Source of the DNA: Martinezella tropici | GTDB lineage: Bacteria; Pseudomonadota; Alphaproteobacteria; Rhizobiales; Rhizobiaceae | Reading direction: 5' to 3' | Length of the DNA stretch: 64,000 bases | Assembly (NCBI GenBank): GCA_000799755.1 | Contig: JUHI01000011.1 | Span: 62,001 to 126,000, forward strand | In this document: positions 40,237 through 50,820 of the stretch, piece after piece | How the letters are laid out: the number at the start of each line of letters is the position of its first letter | How positions within the stretch are numbered: position 1 is the first letter of the stretch | Notes under the pieces: model-generated | What the model was told of the DNA's origin: nothing | Seen by the model: the letters and a program-made list of their open reading frames with translations, nothing else | The model's database searches: none | Position numbers and translations under genes: made by a program

Positions 40237-41241
40237 TCATGCGGTATCGTAAGCGTGGAGATTGCAGGGGATCACCTCCGAGCGTGCCGGTCCCGTATAG
40301 GCGCCCGAAAGCCTCTCCAGCAGCATTTCAGTTGCGCGATGAGCAAGCAGCGACGGCGTATTGCCGACCCTCGTAATGCGTGGCCTGACATATTCGAGCT
40401 GCGGCTGATCGCCGAAGACGGCAATGCCGATATCCTTGGGAACGCTGATACCGCGATCGAAGAACCCCGCGAGCGCGCCGGCCGCCATCAGGTAGTTTCC
40501 GAAGAAAATCACTGAGGGTAGGTTGTCGCCATGGTTCGTCAAAAGCCAATCGACGGCCTCCTCCCCCGAGGGGCCGAGATAGCTTCCTTCTCGGCGCAAC
40601 TCGTCAATCGGCTCGACCCCGTTGTCGCGCAGACCCTGTTCGAAGCCGGCAGCACGCGCCATGGCTTCGGCAAAGAAGGACGGCCCGGTCAGGTGCGCGA
40701 TCCGGCGATGGCCCTTCTTGGCAAGATAGGCTCCCATCTGATGACCTCCGCCGAAATCGTCGATCTTGACGCTATCGACCGCCTTGTTCGGCAGGTCGCC
40801 GATGAACACTGTGGGAAGATCGATTTCGAGCAACGTGTCATGCATGCCATGCAGCGCGAAATCCCCGACGATGAGGCCGTCGATGCGCCGACTGCGGATC
40901 TGGCGGAGATAATGCTGCCCGTGTTCCTGTGAATGGCCACCCGGGACATCGGTGTTGAAGACCAAAAGATCGACCCCGATCGCCTCGAGATCGGACTGCG
41001 CCGCCTGCACCATTTCCGGGTAGAAGGGGTTGCGAATATCCGGGATCAGCATGGCAACGAGATTGGTACGGCCAGTCCTGAGGCTTTGAGCGAGCGGGTT
41101 CGGAACATAGCCAAGCTCGGCGATCGCCTCATGGACGCGCTTGCGCAAGTCCGCCGACACGCGGTCGGCGTGATTGAGCACATGCGACACAGTGGTCGGC
41201 GACACTCCGGCACGCTTGGCAACTTTTGCGATTGTGGTCAT
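40237..41241 (-). CDS. LacI-family repressor of the GH172/CUT1 operon
   Basis: 334 residues. The N-terminal helix-turn-helix is TTIAKVAKRAGVSPTTVSHVL with the hinge region ELGYVPNPLAQSLRTG, followed by a periplasmic-binding-like sensor domain. It is the first gene of the five-gene operon on this strand, so a repressor acting at its promoter would control itself and the transporter together. Two LacI-type operators sit 20-57 bases upstream of its start. Confidence 0.92.
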   Translation of the reverse strand: MTTIAKVAKRAGVSPTTVSHVLNHADRVSADLRKRVHEAIAELGYVPNPLAQSLRTGRTNLVAMLIPDIRNPFYPEMVQAAQSDLEAIGVDLLVFNTDVPGGHSQEHGQHYLRQIRSRRIDGLIVGDFALHGMHDTLLEIDLPTVFIGDLPNKAVDSVKIDDFGGGHQMGAYLAKKGHRRIAHLTGPSFFAEAMARAAGFEQGLRDNGVEPIDELRREGSYLGPSGEEAVDWLLTNHGDNLPSVIFFGNYLMAAGALAGFFDRGISVPKDIGIAVFGDQPQLEYVRPRITRVGNTPSLLAHRATEMLLERLSGAYTGPARSEVIPCNLHAYDTA

Positions 41242-41260: not shown

Positions 41261-41298
41261 GTAAATCGATTTGCAAATGCTTTTGCAAATCGATTTAC
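41261..41298. promoter_or_regulatory. Double LacI operator, perfect 17-bp inverted repeat
   Basis: GTAAATCGATTTGCAAA (41261-41277), TGCT, TTTGCAAATCGATTTAC (41282-41298). Each arm contains the self-complementary core AAATCGATTT with a central CG, matching the LacI-family operator pattern TG-N-AAA-N-CG-N-TTT. So two operators lie back to back, with their core centres 21 bp apart, that is two helical turns. They precede the LacI gene and thus the operon. Confidence 0.75.
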
Positions 41299-41446: not shown

Positions 41447-42037
41447 ATGAACCAATCGGCTATCAGCAAAGCGAACAAGGCACTCTATACGCGGATCATC
41501 GCCGGTCTCGGCGGCCTTCTCGCGGGCGCGCTATCGCTCGGGCTCTCGATCTATGAAACCCGCACGGGAACGGAGGTGGCACAGGTCAAACCCGGCAAGC
41601 CCGTCGATGCCGGTCAGTGGATGGTGACCCTCAATTCCAGCGGCATCGCCACCGAGACACCGGACGGACGACGCGTTCCCGATGGCAAGAAGGCGCTAAC
41701 GCTCGATTTGACACTTGAAAACATGACGGCGGAAAGCTCGAACTTGTATCGCGATGCGCTGAAGCTCGAAAATGTCGCAAACCCTCCGGTTCCACAATTC
41801 TATCTCGTCCGGGACAGTGATTTGCTTTGGGACCTTCAGCCGATGATGCCGGAAAAAGTGAAGGTCGTCTGGCAATTGCCAGCAACACAGGCGCTTCCCA
41901 AAGCACTGAGCGTTGTGATCGTCGGGACCACCTATAAGCCCAAGGACAATCTCTATGCCGCGCCGGGCTGGTTCAACCCGAGTGACGTCGCGCGCATCAG
42001 CCTGCCGCTTTCAGTGAGCCAGGGAGCCGGTCCTTGA
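41447..42037 (+). CDS. Unknown membrane-anchored protein with beta-rich domain
   Basis: 196 residues from the ATG at 41447; an upstream GTG at 41408 would add 13 residues. A single N-terminal helix (IIAGLGGLLAGALSLGLSIY) anchors it, followed by about 150 residues of strand-rich sequence (GQWMVTLNSS, KALTLDLTLENMT, LWDLQPMMPEKVKVVWQLP). The pattern resembles Ig-like domains such as DUF4352, judged by eye. The stop overlaps the next start (TTGA). First of three similar coupled genes. Function unknown. Confidence 0.65.
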   Translation: MNQSAISKANKALYTRIIAGLGGLLAGALSLGLSIYETRTGTEVAQVKPGKPVDAGQWMVTLNSSGIATETPDGRRVPDGKKALTLDLTLENMTAESSNLYRDALKLENVANPPVPQFYLVRDSDLLWDLQPMMPEKVKVVWQLPATQALPKALSVVIVGTTYKPKDNLYAAPGWFNPSDVARISLPLSVSQGAGP

Positions 42038-42597
42038 TACGGCTTCTGCTTTCCCTGTTGTTCGGCGGCGTGACCGCTCTGCTTTTGGCTTTTCTGCAAT
42101 CGACGACCCCGAGCTATGCGATCCTGACTGGCCCCATCGAAACCGCCGGGCTGCAGAAGGACACCGTGTCGAGCAGGACGTTCAGCGTCAAGGTCGCCAA
42201 GGTTCTGCGCACAAAGACGATCGCATTTGCCCCTTATGGCAAGTCGATCGAGCGGCAGACCGAAGGGGTCTGGCTCATCGTCAGTGTCGAGCTGCAGTCG
42301 AATTATGACACTATGACCATTCAGGCCGCGGCAATTGAGGGCGCGTCCGGTCGCCTTTACCGTCAAAGCCATCGCGCCGACGGCGCTCCGCGCCTCATGC
42401 CATCCAAGGATTTGCAGCCAGGCCTACCGACGACGGGCATCTTCATCTTCGAACTGCCGGAAGGCGAAACCAGCGACATGACGCTGGTGCTTTCCAGACA
42501 GCCCTCCCCTCAACTGGACTCGGAAATTCGTGTCAAGCTCGACGGCGCAAGCGTCGAGACACGTGACCGCGTGGAGATCGGTGCCAATGGCGTCTAG
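42034..42597 (+). CDS. Unknown membrane-anchored protein with beta-rich domain
   Basis: 187 residues from a TTG that overlaps the previous stop. An N-terminal helix (LLLSLLFGGVTALLLAFL) is followed by a domain with the strand pattern SRTFSVKVAKVLR, EGVWLIVSVELQS and TGIFIFELPEG, the last being the closing strand seen in DUF4352-like proteins. It overlaps the next gene by 11 bases. Function unknown; same architecture as its two neighbours. Confidence 0.65.
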   Translation: MIRLLLSLLFGGVTALLLAFLQSTTPSYAILTGPIETAGLQKDTVSSRTFSVKVAKVLRTKTIAFAPYGKSIERQTEGVWLIVSVELQSNYDTMTIQAAAIEGASGRLYRQSHRADGAPRLMPSKDLQPGLPTTGIFIFELPEGETSDMTLVLSRQPSPQLDSEIRVKLDGASVETRDRVEIGANGV

Positions 42598-43159
42598 GCG
42601 GGAAAGACGGTTCTGGTGGGCATCCCTGGCAAGCCTGCCCGTCCTGCTGGCGGCCAATTACGCCATTGATGCATGGCGCAATGCCGAAGATTACGTCGGG
42701 CGAAACGAGTTGCGCGTCAGTGGCAGCGTCGATGGACAGACCTATGCCAAGGCGTCCTGGACACTCAACCAGGCAAGATTGATCGGCGATGGACGTGACG
42801 GGAAAATCACCTTTCCCGGTCAGATGCGCCTGGTCGTGGTCAGGCTGGCGGCAAAGGCCGAAGACGATGTCGGGCAATCCTGGACACAATGCAGTCTCAC
42901 CCTGACGGACCCGAAGGGGCGGCGCTGGCAGCCCCTCAACTTCATTCTTTCCAACGATCTCAGCCGCGACCTCGATCCGAAGGCTACCCCCATAGACGGC
43001 TGCGATGCCATATCCCGCCAGCCGCCGGCCAAGGGTGCAAGCACAATCATGGAGGAGAAATTCGTCGTGCCGGCCGATGCGGTTCCCTCCTTATCCGCAC
43101 AGCTGAGTTTCGCCTCGACAAGGCCGGACGCCATATCCTTCCCACTGCGGCTGAACTGA
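42587..43159 (+). CDS. Unknown membrane-anchored protein with beta-rich domain
   Basis: 190 residues; the ATG at 42587 lies inside the end of the previous gene. A basic start (ASRRERR) and one helix (FWWASLASLPVLLAANYAI) give a type II membrane anchor. The outer domain has the strands LRVSGSVDGQ, GQMRLVVVRLAAKA, CSLTLTDPKG and EEKFVVPADAV, and two Cys that could pair. It is the third member of the set and converges with the polytopic protein at 43201. Confidence 0.65.
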   Translation: MASRRERRFWWASLASLPVLLAANYAIDAWRNAEDYVGRNELRVSGSVDGQTYAKASWTLNQARLIGDGRDGKITFPGQMRLVVVRLAAKAEDDVGQSWTQCSLTLTDPKGRRWQPLNFILSNDLSRDLDPKATPIDGCDAISRQPPAKGASTIMEEKFVVPADAVPSLSAQLSFASTRPDAISFPLRLN

Positions 43160-43200
43160 AGCCAAGGAAGTCCCGGAGAGATGCTGACGGACGCCAGACG

Positions 43201-44508
43201 TCAGTCCACGCCGCGGCGCCATTGCCGTCCCTGCGCGAAACCGATTTCCAGAGCCGCGGCCAGCAGGCATATCTTGATCGGCATCACGAGGACGCCGTCG
43301 CCCGGCGCACTGGGACTGCCTAGGAAAAGCGATATTGCCTGGGCAAGCATGTGCCATAGAGGCAGATCGTGGACGCCGATCAGCCTCGATGTGCCGTACC
43401 AGGCCCAGGCTGCGCCCCAATCCAGCAGCCGGTATAGTAGAATGACCGCCAGCAGCAGCCCAAGACCGGACCCCAGGGTGAGGCCGACGCCTTCGGCCAA
43501 GGCACGGTAGCGTTTCGCCGTCCCCGCGATGAAATGCGAAACGAAGTCGCGGATCGCCTTCGGCAGCGACTGCCAGCGAGAGACCGCGCGCGCCAGCCGA
43601 CCTTCCGTCAGCGGGCGTTCGCCATTGATGTCATAGCCATAGACCAAGGCGGCAAGCGTCAACCAGACGACCGGGTAAAGAGCATAGAGGAACAGGCCAC
43701 GCATTTGCCTGGAAAGGGAAAGGGAAGCGTCCTCCGCCGTCGGCGGAAAGAGGGTTGCCGCCGCCGCATTGCCAACCGGATTGAGAAAGCCGAAGAAATG
43801 CCCGACCGTTTCGGGAAGCTTGGCGATCCAGGAACGGATGTCGCCTTGCCAAGTCGAAATGACGAAGAGACCGATGAATGCCCAGTTCGCCTCGCAAACG
43901 ACGATGATAACAGCCCAAATGGGCGCTTTCGATCGCGTATGCATGAATTTGGCGAAACGCCTGACCACCCAAGCGACGGCGACCGATACGAGGAGCCAGG
44001 CGCTACTGCCGAATTTCAAGGGATTATAGTCCTCGCCGAACAGCATCAGGTCGAGCGACAGCCTGGAATAGTCCCTGACCGTATCACCGAGAAACCCCCA
44101 GGCGGCGTAATAGGCGAAGAACGGCACAAGCGTCAGCGCGAGGATCGATGTGAAGCTTGGCGCCACGGAACCGGCGGTGGCATCGATTTCCGGCCGGGCA
44201 GCCGCAGCGCGCGAGGCGGCATCAAGCGACGGCAATCCGGGCCGCACGGTCTCGAACAATGCGACGATGATGACGAGTTTCAGGAGTACGACGAGAGCGA
44301 GGGTGGAAAGTCCCGCAAAGGCATTTAGCCGGCCGATCATGACGGCAAGTTCGTTAAGAAGCGAATTGCCGATCAGCCCCAGGAGCCACAGCGCCATTAG
44401 CTGTGGCCAGAAACGCCACAGCAGTTGCAGGGTGAGTGATGGCAGCCGGAACAGGAACCGGATCGGCGGCGGGTTGGTGTCCTGGGAGAGAACCGTCATG
44501 GTGCGCAT
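43201..44508 (-). CDS. Unknown polytopic membrane protein
   Basis: 435 residues from 44508; starts at 44580 or 44499 are also open, and no ribosome site is decisive. About eight to ten hydrophobic helices are visible, for example LMALWLLGLIGNSLLNELAV, STLALVVLLKLVIIVALFET, LALTLVPFFAYYAAWGF and GSGLGLLLAVILLYRLLDW. No transporter or enzyme signature is recognised. It faces the three anchored-protein genes tail to tail, 41 bases apart, which may mean a shared function. Confidence 0.65.
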   Translation of the reverse strand: MRTMTVLSQDTNPPPIRFLFRLPSLTLQLLWRFWPQLMALWLLGLIGNSLLNELAVMIGRLNAFAGLSTLALVVLLKLVIIVALFETVRPGLPSLDAASRAAAARPEIDATAGSVAPSFTSILALTLVPFFAYYAAWGFLGDTVRDYSRLSLDLMLFGEDYNPLKFGSSAWLLVSVAVAWVVRRFAKFMHTRSKAPIWAVIIVVCEANWAFIGLFVISTWQGDIRSWIAKLPETVGHFFGFLNPVGNAAAATLFPPTAEDASLSLSRQMRGLFLYALYPVVWLTLAALVYGYDINGERPLTEGRLARAVSRWQSLPKAIRDFVSHFIAGTAKRYRALAEGVGLTLGSGLGLLLAVILLYRLLDWGAAWAWYGTSRLIGVHDLPLWHMLAQAISLFLGSPSAPGDGVLVMPIKICLLAAALEIGFAQGRQWRRGVD

Positions 44509-44799
44509 AGTAGCAATCGAACCATCGATCGCCAAGATGTCGCTACAAGCCGGCAAGCGGACGGGATATCCCGTGGTCATTCAATCCACCGGCCTTGTGA
44601 TCGAGCACTCGCGCTGGCCCCAGTCATGCGAGCATTCAGCTGGGGAATCTTCACAATCATAGATTACATGTCTGCGAATGATTTGCATGTGCATTCGCAC
44701 CTGCGACATTGAAGTCAAATATATGTAATATCAAGATAATTTTAGCACGATTCTGCACGCCTCCTGGTTGACGCCGGAGCAAGGAGTCACTAGATCCGA

Positions 44800-44969: not shown

Positions 44970-45533
44970 ATGTCGTTCTTTGCAATCATCGTCCTGGCAT
45001 TCAGCATGTCGATGGATGCCTTCGCCGTGTCGGTCGGTCGTGGCGCGGCCATGGGCCGCCCTCGCCTTTCCGAAACGATCAGAACCGGTGTCGTCTTCGG
45101 CGTCGTCGAGGCAATTACCCCCGTCATCGGCTGGGGTGCTGGCGTGGCTGCCGCCAACTTCGTCAGTGCGGTCGACCATTGGATCGCATTCAGCCTGCTC
45201 GCGGCCGTCGGCGCCAATATGCTCCATGCCGCCATCCGCAACAGGCCGGAGGAGAAGGAGGTGCGCCCCACCATGTCATTTGCGGTGCTGATGGCAACCG
45301 CAATCGGAACGAGCCTCGACGCCATGGCTGTCGGCGTGTCATTGGCATTTCTGCAGGTCAACATTCTTGTCATCGCCACGGCGATCGGCGCCGCGACATT
45401 CCTGATGTCATCGGGTGGCATGCTGGTCGGGCGACTGATCGGGGAGCGCTTCGGCAGGATTGCCGAAGGAGTTGCAGGCGTTGCCCTGATCGGGCTTGGC
45501 GGCTCGATCCTCTACGAGCACCTGCTGGCCTGA
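44970..45533 (+). CDS. mntP: Manganese efflux pump MntP
   Basis: 187 residues from 44970, 8 bases after GAGG; an in-frame start at 44853 would run through the riboswitch. Six helices in two repeats carry the family motifs [15 protein letters not shown] and [20 protein letters not shown], each with the conserved Asp needed for Mn2+ export. It protects against manganese overload. Control by the upstream riboswitch is the expected arrangement. Confidence 0.92.
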
Positions 45534-45570: not shown

Positions 45571-46713
45571 TCAGGTTTTCCGCGCCTTGCGCCCCGCCTT
45601 GACGCCGCCAGGCGGGGCAACGGAGGCACGCTTGACCAGCGAGCATTCGAGTTTGGTGATCTGATAGCGTCGCTCGCGCGGCAGGACTGCCGTTTCGAGA
45701 TGCTCGATCGCCCATTGGCCCATGGCCATGTGCGGCAGGATCGAGGTCGTCAAGGGCGGCACAAGATGGCGGCAGATGTCTTCGTCGTCGTAGCCCATGA
45801 CCGACATGTCCTCCGGTATGTGGAGCCCAGCTTCCTTCAGCGCTTCGTAGCAACCGATGGCGGTGCGGTCGTTCTGGCAGAAGATTGCGGTCGGACGCTC
45901 GGGAAGCGAAAGCAGCTTCATGGTGCCGGAATAGCCGGCGCTCGCCGACCAATCGCCTTCTATGACAAGTTCGGGATCGAATGGAATGTCGGCCGTTGCC
46001 AGCGCCCGGCGATAGCCGGTCAGCCGATCCTGAGCCGCCTGCATCCATGGTTCGCCGGTGATTGTCGCGATCCGATGATGGCCGTGCGAGATCAGATGCC
46101 GGGTCGCAGTCTGGCCGCCGGCTATCTCGCTTGGAACAACGGCGGGAAAGGCATAATCGGACGTGTAGCAATTCAGAAGAACGATCGGGATATTGAGATC
46201 GTAGAGATAGTCCGGCGCCTCCACCTCGCGGGTGAATATCGTCATGTAGATGAGCGCCGAGATGCCGCTGCTGCTGAGCGCCTTGATCGCTCTCGGTTCC
46301 ATGACGGGATCGCTCATGGTCTGCGCGACGAGCAGGACGTTTCCAGCGTTCCACGACGCCTGGCGCGCGCCCTCGATCGCAACGACGGCCTCCGGGCTCG
46401 TCGCGAGCTGGTCGACAGCAAAACCGATGATGCCATCTAGCTTCGAAGGCGAGAGGAGCGCGGGCGGCGTGGCAAGCACCGGCGCGACATAGCCGAGCTG
46501 ACGGGCGGCCTCGATCACCTTCTCGCGGGTCTGCTGGGACAGGCGCATGCCGGGCGTATTGTTGAGGACGAAGGATACTGCGCTCTGTGAACATCCTGCC
46601 GCCTTGGCAATGTCGGTCATCGTGACCCTGCTGCCGGGACGGCGGCCGTTTCGTCTTGATAGCCCGCTGTCGTCGGCCAGCTGATCGCCATTTGCGGCCG
46701 ATATTTTTTTCAT
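45571..46713 (-). CDS. LacI-family regulator of the ribose-type ABC operon
   Basis: 380 residues. A 30-residue basic N-terminal extension precedes the helix-turn-helix VTMTDIAKAAGCSQSAVSFVL; a start at 46620 would remove it. The sensor domain is of the ribose/galactose-binding type. It is divergent from the binding-protein gene at 47084, across about 370 bases holding a candidate operator (46941-46956). Confidence 0.9.
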   Translation of the reverse strand: MKKISAANGDQLADDSGLSRRNGRRPGSRVTMTDIAKAAGCSQSAVSFVLNNTPGMRLSQQTREKVIEAARQLGYVAPVLATPPALLSPSKLDGIIGFAVDQLATSPEAVVAIEGARQASWNAGNVLLVAQTMSDPVMEPRAIKALSSSGISALIYMTIFTREVEAPDYLYDLNIPIVLLNCYTSDYAFPAVVPSEIAGGQTATRHLISHGHHRIATITGEPWMQAAQDRLTGYRRALATADIPFDPELVIEGDWSASAGYSGTMKLLSLPERPTAIFCQNDRTAIGCYEALKEAGLHIPEDMSVMGYDDEDICRHLVPPLTTSILPHMAMGQWAIEHLETAVLPRERRYQITKLECSLVKRASVAPPGGVKAGRKARKT

Positions 46714-47083
46714 AACTCTGTCTTATCTCCCGTAAAGCGAAACCGGCGGCAATCCCCATCGCCGTCTCCGCGCGCTAATATTTATTATCATCATTTGAGC
46801 GATCTCGGCAACCACCACGGATGTGAATGCAATCTCTGCCAGCACTTTCGAGCCCAAGAATGCTGATAATTGAAGTAACTAGCGAGAATCACAGCATTCC
46901 GAAGCTTCGCCCCCACGAAATTGTATTACTAATTCTATTTACTAATCGAAATTAGTCGTATACCGTCGCGATCGTGGCTGGACGTGCCGTATCTCGCTTG
47001 ACGAGAACCCTAGGAGGGGGTGTCGGAGCGGTCTGCCGCGAGTTGCAACTAGACCCCGATAGCGGGTCTATGGGAGGATGATC
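46714..47083. other. Divergent promoter region of the CUT2 operon
   Basis: 370 bases without a gene. The AT-rich part around 46920-46960 holds the inverted repeat described below. The plus-strand leader (46960-47070) has CTAGACCCCGATAGCGGGTCTA, a hairpin-like element at 47050-47070, directly before the GGGAGG ribosome site. Confidence 0.4.
46941..46956. promoter_or_regulatory. Candidate LacI operator
   Basis: ACTAAT (46941-46946), CGAA, ATTAGT (46951-46956): a near-palindrome with central CG, as is usual for LacI-family sites. It lies between the divergent LacI gene and the ABC operon, 128 bases before the binding-protein start. Confidence 0.5.
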
Positions 47084-48040
47084 ATGAAGTACCTAACACG
47101 GGGCGCTGCCGCCTTTGCGGCAGGGCTGATGCTGAGCTATGCGACGGCGACCTACGCCGCCGACAAGCCGACACTCGCATTTGTGGTCAACGGCGCATCC
47201 GACTTCTGGAAGGCGGCCGAAGCCGGCGTCAAGAAGGCCCAGGCGGAGCTGCCGGACTTCAATATGGAGCTGAAATATCCCGAACAGTCGTCGGTCGCAA
47301 TCCAGCAGCGACTGATGGAAGACCTGGTCTCAGCCGGCGTCAAAGGCATCATGGTCTCTGCTGTCGACCCCAAGACCTCGACGGACGGGCTGAACAAGAT
47401 CGGCTCGGAAACCGCGCTGTTCACCACCGATAGCGATGCACCGGATACCAACCGCGTCGCCTATATCGGCTCCTCGAACGTCGATGCCGGCAAACAGGCC
47501 GCCGAAATCGCCAAGAAAGCCATGCCGAACGGGGGCAAGTGCATCGGCTTCGTGGGGCTTTTGGGCGCCGACAATGCCAAGGAGCGTATCCAGGGCATGA
47601 AGGACGGCATAGCCGGCACCAAGATCGAACTGGTCGACGTCCGCGGCGACGATATCGATCAGACAAGAGCAAAGAAGAACGTCGAAGACGCGCTTGTCGC
47701 AAGTCCCGACGTGACCTGCATGGTCGGCTTCTACTCCTATAACACGCCACGTATCTACGAAGCTCTGCGCGAAGCCGGCAAGCTCGGCCAGATCACCGTC
47801 GTCGGCTTCGATGATGATCCGATCACGCTCGGCGGCGTCAAGGAAGGAACCATTGCCGGTACCGTCGTGCAGCAGCCCTATCTCTGGGCCTATCAGGGCA
47901 TGAAGCTGATGGCCGCCTATCTGAAGGGCGACAAATCGGGAATTCCAGCCAACAAGCTGATCATCATCCCGACGAAGATCATCGGCAAGGATGATGTCGA
48001 CGCCTACGCGGCTAACCTGAAGGCTATGGCCGGCAACTAA
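47084..48040 (+). CDS. Sugar-binding protein of a CUT2 ABC transporter
   Basis: 318 residues from the second ATG (47084), 6 bases after GGGAGG. The signal peptide is cleaved near TYAA. The mature domain starts PTLAFVVNGASDFWKAAEAG and contains GVKGIMVSAVDPK and VVGFDDDPITLGGV, the Peripla_BP_4 (RbsB-like) pattern. It binds a monosaccharide or polyol; the exact ligand is unknown. Confidence 0.92.
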   Translation: MKYLTRGAAAFAAGLMLSYATATYAADKPTLAFVVNGASDFWKAAEAGVKKAQAELPDFNMELKYPEQSSVAIQQRLMEDLVSAGVKGIMVSAVDPKTSTDGLNKIGSETALFTTDSDAPDTNRVAYIGSSNVDAGKQAAEIAKKAMPNGGKCIGFVGLLGADNAKERIQGMKDGIAGTKIELVDVRGDDIDQTRAKKNVEDALVASPDVTCMVGFYSYNTPRIYEALREAGKLGQITVVGFDDDPITLGGVKEGTIAGTVVQQPYLWAYQGMKLMAAYLKGDKSGIPANKLIIIPTKIIGKDDVDAYAANLKAMAGN

Positions 48041-48051
48041 GGCCAGCCCGC

Positions 48052-48082
48052 AGCAGCGCCGGTTGCGAGGATCGGCGCTGCT
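48052..48082 (+). other. Hairpin after the CUT2 binding-protein gene
   Basis: AGCAGCGCCG (48052-48061) and CGGCGCTGCT (48073-48082) form a perfect 10-bp stem 12 bases after the stop and before the ATPase gene. No T-run follows, so mRNA stabilisation or partial termination is likely. Confidence 0.6.
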
Positions 48083-48145
48083 CGAATGCAATTGCTCACG
48101 TCGCCGCGGCCTTCGAGGCCTCATCGCACAGGCATGATATTCGTT

Positions 48146-49687
48146 ATGAACCAACGCTCGGACACATCGCTATCGACTGAGGCCGCAGCGCCCTTTCTCA
48201 GCCTTTCGGGAATCGGCAAGACCTATCCCGGCGTCGTGGCGCTCGACAATTTCTCGATGGAGGTCAACCCCGGCGAGGTGATCGGTCTCGTCGGCGAGAA
48301 CGGCGCTGGCAAATCGACGCTCATGAAGATCCTTGGCGGTGTCGTCAAACCGGATCGTGGCAACATTCGGCTCGACGGTGCCGAGCATGCGGCGTTCACC
48401 GTCGAAAGCAGCATCGCCTCGGGGATCGCCTTTGTCCATCAGGAGCTGAATCTGTTCGAGAATCTCGATGTCGCCGCCAATATCTTCCTTGGCCGCGAAC
48501 CGCTGCGCGGCGGCGCGCTGAAGCTGGTCGACCGCGCCCGTCTGCGCGAAATGGTCGCCCCTCTTTTGAAGCGTGTCGGTGCCAATTTCTCGCCGGATAC
48601 CCCGGTGGCGTCGCTATCGCTTGCCCAGCAGCAGATGGTCGAAATCGCCAAGGCATTATCCATCAACGCCCGGCTCGTCATTCTCGACGAGCCAACCTCT
48701 AGCCTGCCGCTTGCCGAAACCGAAAAGCTGCTGGCCGTCATATCCTCGCTGAAAGCCGACGGCATCAGCGTCATCTTCATCTCGCACCGCCTGCATGAGG
48801 TCGAGCGCGTCGCAGATCGCGTCATCGTCCTGCGTGACGGTACGCTCGTCGGAACATTGCCGAAGGATGCGATCGACCACGACCGAATGGTGAAGCTGAT
48901 GATCGGTCGAGCGCTGGCTGCGCGATCCGTGGAAGCGGCGCATCCGCCGGGAGACGTCGCACTCAAGATTACCGCGGTTCGAACCGCCGCCTATCCAACA
49001 CAGCCTGTCAGCCTCGACATTCGCTATGGCGAAATCCTTGGCCTTGCCGGTCTCGTCGGCTCGGGGCGGACGGAGCTTGCCCGCGTTCTCTTCGGCGTCG
49101 ACCATAGCTACGGCGGCGGCATCAGCCTTGGTGGCCAGGAGCTGAAACTGCGATCGGCGAGAGACGCCGTCGCCAACGGCATTTTTCTGGTGCCGGAGGA
49201 CCGCAAGCTGAACGGCATTCTGCTCGACCTGCCGATTTCGCAAAACATATCCCTGCCCAACCTTCCGGCCTTCGCGCGGCGCTCCATGGTATCGCCGGAG
49301 CGGGAAAATGCCATCGCGGAAACACAACGCAGACAGCTCGCCATCAAGACGCCGTCGGTCTCGACTCGCACGGGCACGCTTTCGGGGGGCAATCAGCAGA
49401 AGGTCGTGCTCGCCAAATGGCTGGCGATGCATCCGAAGGTGTTGATCTTCGACGAGCCCACACGCGGCATCGATATCGGTGCGAAGAGCGAAATCTACAG
49501 CCTCATGCGCAAGCTTGCCGATGCAGGCGTCGCGATCTTGATGATATCGAGCGACATGGAGGAGGTAATCGGCGTCTCTGACCGTATCGCCGTCATGCAT
49601 GAGGGTCGGATCTCCGGCATTCTCGACAAGGATCAGTTCAGTCAGGAAAACGTGCTTTTGCTGGCCGTCGGCAAGAGATTACACTAG
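48146..49687 (+). CDS. Double ATP-binding protein of a CUT2 ABC transporter (RbsA-like)
   Basis: 513 residues from 48146; a start at 48134 is also open. There are two ATPase domains: the first with Walker A GENGAGKSTLMKIL, signature LSLAQQQMVEIAKAL and ILDEPTSSL; the second with the altered Walker A GLVGSGRTELARVL, LSGGNQQKVVLAKWL and IFDEPTRGIDIGAK. This asymmetric pair is usual for RbsA/MglA. It energises the permease encoded next. Confidence 0.93.
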   Translation: MNQRSDTSLSTEAAAPFLSLSGIGKTYPGVVALDNFSMEVNPGEVIGLVGENGAGKSTLMKILGGVVKPDRGNIRLDGAEHAAFTVESSIASGIAFVHQELNLFENLDVAANIFLGREPLRGGALKLVDRARLREMVAPLLKRVGANFSPDTPVASLSLAQQQMVEIAKALSINARLVILDEPTSSLPLAETEKLLAVISSLKADGISVIFISHRLHEVERVADRVIVLRDGTLVGTLPKDAIDHDRMVKLMIGRALAARSVEAAHPPGDVALKITAVRTAAYPTQPVSLDIRYGEILGLAGLVGSGRTELARVLFGVDHSYGGGISLGGQELKLRSARDAVANGIFLVPEDRKLNGILLDLPISQNISLPNLPAFARRSMVSPERENAIAETQRRQLAIKTPSVSTRTGTLSGGNQQKVVLAKWLAMHPKVLIFDEPTRGIDIGAKSEIYSLMRKLADAGVAILMISSDMEEVIGVSDRIAVMHEGRISGILDKDQFSQENVLLLAVGKRLH

Positions 49688-49812
49688 GGCAGTTCAGTTC
49701 TTCGCGGACAGCTGAACCACTCTATCTCATTGTTCTTACGCAATTACAGGAAAGCCGCTGTGCACTTTCCAGGAATTGCTCAAACGGCTGCGGCCAATGG
49801 GAATTGATATCG

Positions 49813-50820
49813 ATGAGTAAGAAAGATCTTGGCCTGCTTCTCTTGATCATCGTCGTCGGCATTGTCGTGACGATCATCAATCCGCGCTTCCTTTTGCCGA
49901 TCAACCTCGCCAATACGTCAAATCTCATCGGTCTTTTCGGAATACTGTCGATCGGCCAGGCCTTCGTCATCATTACCGGCGGTATCGAGCTGTCCGTTGG
50001 TTCGCTCGTTGCCCTACTCGGCGTGCTGTTCATCGATTTCATCGCCGTCCAGAACATGCCCTGGGCGATCGCACTGCCGCTGATCTTGGTCCTTGGCGGC
50101 GTACTTGGCGCAGTCCATGGCTGGTTGATTACGCGGCTCAATCTTCAGCCTTTCGTCGTCACACTCTGCGGCCTGCTGATCTATCGGGGCGCGGCGCGCT
50201 TTTATACCGCCGACGGTACGGCAGGCTTTGCCTTCGGACAGAATTTCCCGGCCCTTGAATTTTTGACCGCCGGCCGTTTCTACGGTGTGCCGAACACCTT
50301 CATCGCACTTGTGATCATTGCTGCCGTCATGTGGATCGTCCTGCATCGCTCCGTCTACGGCCGCTATCTCTATGCGATCGGCAAGAATGAGGAAGCAGCG
50401 AAATATTCCGGCATCCGCACCACGAAGATGGTGACGGTCGCCTACATCATCTGCGGCGTGCTGACGGCGCTTTCGGCAATCTATTTCGCCATGTACACGC
50501 GCTCGATCTCGCCGGCGAGCCACGGTCAGTTCTATGAACTCTATGCGATTGCCGCAGCTGTCCTCGGCGGCTTTTCGCTGCGCGGCGGCGAAGGTTCCCT
50601 GATCGGCGTCGTGCTCGGCACGATCCTGCTGCAGGAGCTGCAGAACCTCGTCAATCTGCTCGGCATCCCCTCCTCGCTGAACTTCGCCGTCATGGGCGGC
50701 GTCATCCTGCTCGGCGTTCTGATCGATCAGCAATGGAGCGCGATCCGGGCTCAACGACGGCTGGTATCGGCTGCACGCCAAGCGGAGACGCGCCAGCCCG
50801 CCGAACAGCCGCAGTCGTGA
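49813..50820 (+). CDS. Permease of a CUT2 ABC transporter (RbsC-like)
   Basis: 335 residues from the ATG at 49813; the TTG three codons before is unlikely. It has about nine or ten helices, with the BPD_transp_2 signatures GGIELSVGSLVALLGV, VYGRYLYAIGKNEEAAKYSG and AVLGGFSLRGGEGSLIGVVLG. Third gene of the operon. A strong terminator follows. Confidence 0.92.
   Translation: MSKKDLGLLLLIIVVGIVVTIINPRFLLPINLANTSNLIGLFGILSIGQAFVIITGGIELSVGSLVALLGVLFIDFIAVQNMPWAIALPLILVLGGVLGAVHGWLITRLNLQPFVVTLCGLLIYRGAARFYTADGTAGFAFGQNFPALEFLTAGRFYGVPNTFIALVIIAAVMWIVLHRSVYGRYLYAIGKNEEAAKYSGIRTTKMVTVAYIICGVLTALSAIYFAMYTRSISPASHGQFYELYAIAAAVLGGFSLRGGEGSLIGVVLGTILLQELQNLVNLLGIPSSLNFAVMGGVILLGVLIDQQWSAIRAQRRLVSAARQAETRQPAEQPQS

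Follow-up and report, generated by a model that had tools for sequence, protein, structure and literature searches.

Four adjacent genes in a 64,000-nucleotide stretch of the Martinezella tropici genome (contig JUHI01000011.1, positions 62,001 to 126,000; hereafter the window) raise the question of whether proteins that match no curated family work together and, if they do, at what. Three of them, A, B and C, lie on the plus strand. Gene A (41447-42037) encodes 196 residues with an N-terminal membrane helix and a DUF4352-related outer domain, gene B (42034-42597, TTG start) 187 residues with an N-terminal helix and a DUF4352-type outer domain, and gene C (42587-43159) 190 residues with an N-terminal helix and an outer domain that holds two cysteines. 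Gene D (43201-44499, minus strand) encodes a polytopic inner-membrane protein of ~432 residues from its likely start (435 from 44508). As the initial annotation had described, the three consecutive genes overlap at their ends, by 4 bases between A and B, where the start of B lies on the stop of A, and by 11 bases between B and C, and D converges on them with a stop-to-stop distance of 41 bases from C. The single N-terminal helix that it gave to each of A, B and C agrees with a single hydrophobic stretch in each translation (about residues 15-36 of A, 3-22 of B and 8-26 of C), judged by eye and not with a membrane-helix predictor. In B, a TPxY motif is conserved just past this helix.

All four are real genes under purifying selection, not chance frames, because the ratio of nonsynonymous to synonymous substitution rates (dN/dS) was low. 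Measured against six close relatives (for C, five), it was 0.08-0.28 in A and 0.09-0.17 in the other three. Among the four proteins of the window, none scored above a curated cut-off in Pfam or NCBIfam, and none had a credible PADLOC match. D matched no Pfam family and no transporter family, in line with its first description as a membrane protein of no known family. In six of seven annotated plasmid regions all four products were named 'hypothetical protein', as were the two products listed in the seventh. The proposal that the set was not yet described thus agrees with the family libraries and with the open-access literature, searched with few terms; no description of an A-D set was among the papers listed.

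A search of species genomes with D alone returned 218 relatives; the locus counts rest on the best 80, in which the neighbours of D were looked for with profiles of A, B and C. The complete A-D set was present in 78 of these 80 named loci, and in the two incomplete ones (L040 and L083) the contig ended 144 bases past D or right at D. The set was also complete in all 10 genome loci that were drawn larger (one is the window, and at least four are also among the 80). Among 21 genome loci with short flanks, B and C were found in 21 each and A in 19, the two loci without A ending before it.

Gene order took three forms in the 85 loci with clean coordinates: A-B-C converging with D in 75, D>A>B>C in nine and A>B>C>D in one. 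The order D>A>B>C was also found in a Shinella plasmid. The overlap of A and B was 4 bases in 70 of the 85 loci and 1 base in 13. In the co-directional orders D is coupled to the A-C genes: in one metagenome-assembled genome (MAG; L092) C and D share a 4-base ATGA overlap, and in three loci (L078, L102 and L108) the ATG of A, as chosen by script, lies 8 bases inside the end of D. The same 8-base overlap was seen in L079 and L080 on reading the junction, where the script had picked an earlier start. Since the set has been reoriented yet was not found split, operon inertia is a poor explanation for its persistence. The pairwise-identity matrices of the A, B, C and D proteins were correlated at r = 0.93-0.96 over 77 loci, as expected if the four genes travel together.

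Copies with one gene in two frames were seen for C in L094, for A in L097 and for B in L123, and A is perhaps frameshifted in the plasmid locus L127. The split B of L123 (9741-10427) belongs to pSymA of Sinorhizobium medicae ml29; in S. medicae WSM419 (L122) B is one frame. In a Mesorhizobium locus (L067) ~600 bases separate B and C in place of the overlap, likely through an insertion.

Presence and absence of the genes also matched. At the family level, D and C were found in the identical 10 of 151 genomes. At the order level, D was found in 14 of 397 genomes and B in those 14 and one more (G234), and in the phylum sample D was found in 6 of 398; these order and phylum searches scored only some of the first-look candidates, so that absences in them are not absolute. 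The B match in G234 was a distant DUF4352 protein (L128, 6679-7251) on a contig whose other genes look foreign, with frames read by eye; the contig was taken as a contaminant and its protein used solely as a DUF4352 bridge. Whole sets were found, on chromosomes as well as on plasmids, in Rhizobiales, Paracoccus, Reyranella MAGs and some Burkholderiales, and their carriers include well-known nitrogen-fixing symbionts; three of the MAG loci (L050, L055 and L092) are possibly misbinned. D matched 40 plasmid records, and A-D stood together in all 10 loci examined among those 40. Against 50,697 phage records, searched for a phage origin of D, there were zero matches. In a midpoint-rooted tree of D with several uncertain long branches, the Achromobacter and Bordetella rows and one of Burkholderiales formed a supported group (100/97) amid alpha-proteobacterial rows. 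The position of this beta-proteobacterial group suggests transfer.

The initial annotation had proposed to look for conservation of the neighbourhood in relatives. The complete sets in nearly all of the named loci, the three gene orders and the matched presence and absence show stronger conservation than this test demanded, and they argue for one functional unit. We conclude that A-D very probably act together at the cell surface. Mere chance adjacency of an unrelated membrane gene to an operon for small anchored proteins would fit the opposite strands in the window (A-C plus, D minus). It would not fit 78 full loci of 80 in three orders, 10 of 10 plasmid loci or the matched presence of D with B and C; chance neighbourhood is refuted by these counts, and we give it virtually no credence.

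Genes beyond the set were compared in 30 of 90 loci (frames of at least 110 residues, clusters in at least four loci, best 40 clusters). The clusters present in at least eight of the 30 loci were, by coordinates, A-D themselves or frames that overlap them or lie antisense to them. The commonest flanking family was an ATP-binding cassette (ABC) ATPase in seven of the 30 loci, and another occurred in six. A larger conserved operon beyond A-D was rejected because the top outside family was in just these seven. Four Mesorhizobium loci have a common run of flanking genes; neighbours elsewhere were inositol genes in Paracoccus, tra genes in an Agrobacterium plasmid typed as conjugative and insertion sequences in S. 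meliloti.

Such changing neighbours, together with a scattered occurrence (10 of the 151 genomes of the family) and occasional broken copies, would be in keeping with a dispensable defence or immunity cassette that is spread by plasmids and guards the envelope from phages, bacteriocins or competitors; the 40 plasmid records, with the conjugative-type Agrobacterium plasmid in which the set stands beside tra genes, point the same way. We nevertheless consider this quite improbable. All four genes are under purifying selection, no PADLOC match was credible (the best, of D to a two-helix effector model, had E = 0.032), and the seven annotated plasmid regions, whose neighbours were not PADLOC-scanned, list no defence-gene product names.

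What kind of proteins are A, B and C? The initial annotation took all three for similar proteins and diverged paralogs, which held for A and B but not convincingly for C. A and B matched each other in a profile comparison (hhalign) with probability 62 and E = 8e-5 (57 and 1e-4 with more sequences). B matched the Pfam model of DUF4352 (PF11611) at E = 0.0082 and 16.9 bits, short of the curated cut-off of 25.9 bits; among B homologues, 4 of 21 matched DUF4352 (best E = 0.0021), and a Shinella B reached 18.2 bits. A had no DUF4352 match in the Pfam scan. The L128 protein, a genuine DUF4352 member (E = 8.3e-13), was matched by A at E = 6.6e-6 and by B at 2.1e-9 among the frames of one 14-kb locus, and by B at 5.5e-8 in the genome-wide search. 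By hhalign its match to A had a probability of 91 and that to B of 90, with scores of 44.7 and 43.4 compared to shuffled maxima of 18.8 and 22.5. By these profile matches, A and B are related though diverged, and the outer domain of each is of the DUF4352 type. The DUF4352 family has a beta-sandwich fold; of the strand-rich outer domains first proposed for all three proteins, those of A and B are predicted by this match alone. DUF4352 was above the cut-off in none of the 61 genomes around that of the window and at E < 0.001 in one.

For C, the hhalign probability of the match to A dropped from 15.9 to 2.0 once sequences were added, and that of the match to B went from 0.4 to 0.3. The comparison of C with the L128 protein gave a probability of 0.6 and a score of 17.0, inside the shuffled range (maximum 17.4). 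A run of motifs in C resembles A and B by eye and was judged insufficient as evidence; kinship of C with A and B was rejected as unconvincing. The window's C had no family match in the libraries scanned, and 21 members gave weak scattered matches only. Searching the PDB by sequence with B and C, A not being searched, returned nothing for C and for B a sole match to ApaG at E = 0.82. The two cysteines in the outer domain of C are each conserved in 86 of 87 sequences, and the pair is consistent with a periplasmic disulfide.

The start of D at 44508, as first annotated, is probably wrong. A promoter-like site, TTGGCG-N17-TACTAT (44507-44535, minus strand), lies 36 bases before an ATG at 44499, and the same pattern, exact or slightly changed, was found 36 (once 35) bases before the D start in the window's close group, in 13 loci counting the window itself. 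Because the site spans the 44508 codon and sits at -36 or -35 from 44499 in these loci, D most likely starts at 44499 rather than at 44508. From this putative promoter the D message would be almost leaderless. Counted at any position near D, the pattern occurred in 16 of 89 loci compared to a shuffled mean of 1.4 (maximum 6), and near A in 0 of 87 (shuffled mean 1.2); it was taken from the alignment first and counted afterwards, so that the counts are not an independent test. Neither a general stress response promoter nor one of the TTGAC type was enriched upstream of A or of D.

Separate transcription bears on whether the four proteins form a complex at all. A-C and D might act at different steps of the same envelope task, in one pathway without a stable complex, their genes being kept together since neither part is useful alone. 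The convergent order, in which the two parts are transcribed separately, is the commonest (75 of 85 loci), and in the window's close group D has a promoter-like site of its own. Such tight packing as is seen in every order, extending to overlaps of D with A or C on a shared strand, is however more usual for subunits, and we regard the pathway without a complex as possible but unlikely.

The sequence of D predicts ~8 membrane helices with both ends inside, from hydropathy averaged over the alignment and loop charge averaged over 61 sequences. The count of eight was reached with the help of predicted helices, as the raw hydropathy script split some peaks. Two positions in predicted helices, R346 and E407 (alignment numbering), did not vary in any of 67 sequences, and E192 was E or D in all 67. 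Two weak family matches, which cover part of the chain, were judged to reflect membrane composition and set aside: MASE4, at E = 0.0011 in 1 of 21 members, and Abhydrolase_9_N, in 11 of 61 (best E = 0.0017; the window's D at 14.9 bits with a cut-off of 27). A sequence search of the PDB with D gave no match.

Two AlphaFold models of D, built from 21 and 61 sequences, had a predicted local distance difference test score (pLDDT) of 72 and 76. VIA-align was run on Foldseek candidates, 741 chains for the first model and 916 for the second. With the first model, the choline transporter-like (CTL) protein CTL1 gave Z = 10.2 (228 residues, 5.3 A) and 9.7 (240 residues, 5.8 A), and the next row was at 6.9. 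With the second, PNS1 gave 10.7 and CTL1 10.3 (248 residues at 6.2 A and 224 at 4.7 A, respectively), and the next was at 7.7. These SLC44 proteins were the sole matches with Z of at least 8 to both models, and they span nearly all of D. The likeness of D to the CTL/SLC44 fold is a lead and not proof, because helical proteins can reach such Z values, the models are dependent, and neither a sequence match nor a repeat was found.

With its ~8 helices holding conserved charged residues, D might instead be an ordinary transporter of solutes, whose regulation or substrate handling in the periplasm would fall to A-C. In agreement with this idea, the set's neighbours in the window are sugar-transport genes, and in seven of 30 loci the ABC ATPase family is close by. 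These neighbours are not conserved, though, and D matches no transporter family; moreover, the closest fold, CTL/SLC44, is argued to be ill-suited to transport, which its authors do not exclude (PMC13160678). We consider an ordinary transporter rather unlikely. The four genes include no ATPase or other obvious energy source, so active transport driven by hydrolysis is unlikely as well, unless a partner is encoded elsewhere.

The explanation that we favour, with a confidence only somewhat above even, is that A-D form one envelope module in the cytoplasmic membrane, with D as the core and A-C around it, their outer domains in the periplasm. In the membrane, D would resemble a bowl of the CTL/SLC44 type whose opening faces the periplasm. 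A, B and C would be made in a fixed order from their overlapping genes and would place their outer domains, DUF4352-type in A and B and presumably stapled by a disulfide in C, around or over D. Most speculatively, the bowl of D might bind a lipid-like or other envelope ligand, which the outer domains would receive or sense.

Several points weigh against this module. The promoter-like site of D in the close group means that A-C and D may be expressed apart, and C is without convincing kinship to A and B. The 80 loci are the best of the 218 D relatives and leave remoter ones out, and shared ancestry alone also yields high matrix correlations, for which no control gene was compared. For the fold of D, Foldseek had no significant match to either model (best E ~1), and the two models are not independent, being of one protein from overlapping alignments with moderate pLDDT. 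The alignment to SLC44 covers 224-248 residues, little over half of D, at 4.7-6.2 A, and Z of ~10 can be attained by unrelated helical bundles according to VIA-align's own note. No choline transporter-like family was among the 17 Pfam families that 61 D members matched at E ≤ 1. By profile, D showed no internal repeat, an apparent match of H3 and H4 being an overlap of the compared pieces. It is the unit that the loci establish; the contact among A-D, the ligand and the task are what we infer.

The window carries further genes on either side of the set. Upstream of A lies a LacI-type regulator gene (40240-41241, minus strand), and the interval between it and A holds a palindrome-like sequence (41263-41296), AAATCGATTTGCAAATGCTTTTGCAAATCGATTT, which looks like a putative operator of this regulator. 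Among the close loci, L032, L034 and L035 have the same sequence upstream of A, and L036 nearly so. Beyond A is a sugar ABC set whose binding protein is of the maltose type. D is adjoined by a gene for an MntP-like manganese exporter (44970-45533; 198.8 bits, just missing the NCBIfam cut-off of 214), and beyond D (45571-50820) come another LacI-type regulator and the binding protein, ATPase and permease of a ribose-type sugar ABC transporter.

How do the four proteins compare with known systems? We know of no system that joins a DUF4352-type pair, a protein such as C and a polytopic protein such as D. With DUF4352 proteins, A and B share a match to a genuine member and B a weak match to the Pfam model. 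They differ in lying under the Pfam cut-off and in being two diverged copies encoded with C and a polytopic partner. A set kept so tightly must have a function, and it is defined well enough to be deleted and purified.

For D the comparison is with CTL1 and PNS1, which a recent paper describes as bowl-like and outward-open, with four helix pairs, short helices between them and two additional helices at the edge (PMC13160678). The helices of D can likewise be grouped into four pairs separated by short helices, comparable to M3-M10 of those proteins (PMC13160678), and helices 1-8 of D would answer to M3-M10. D differs from them in having ~8 helices instead of ten, without the M1/M2 edge pair, and an outer domain, which CTL1 forms from a loop of its own chain and PNS1 does not have (same source), would here come from A-C. 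The PDB and Pfam searches found no sequence kinship between D and the CTL/SLC44 proteins. In the same account CTL1 and PNS1 are weakly like CysZ, a structural neighbour of PNS1 with a DALI Z of 9.7 (PMC13160678). By this analogy D and CysZ may belong to one broad fold group; D had no Pfam match to the CysZ/EI24 family, and CysZ did not turn up among the structures compared with D, an absence that does not exclude a likeness.

A more specific version, in which D belongs to the CTL/SLC44 fold class as a bacterial representative and the outer domain of CTL1 is provided by A, B and C as separate chains, is tentative, and we would not expect it to hold. If true, a eukaryotic membrane-protein family of disputed function would gain a bacterial counterpart amenable to genetics, and confirmation of the CTL-like fold of D would provide a bacterial system for asking what this fold does. 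Of the four proteins, A and B lie near a known domain family and D maybe near a known fold.

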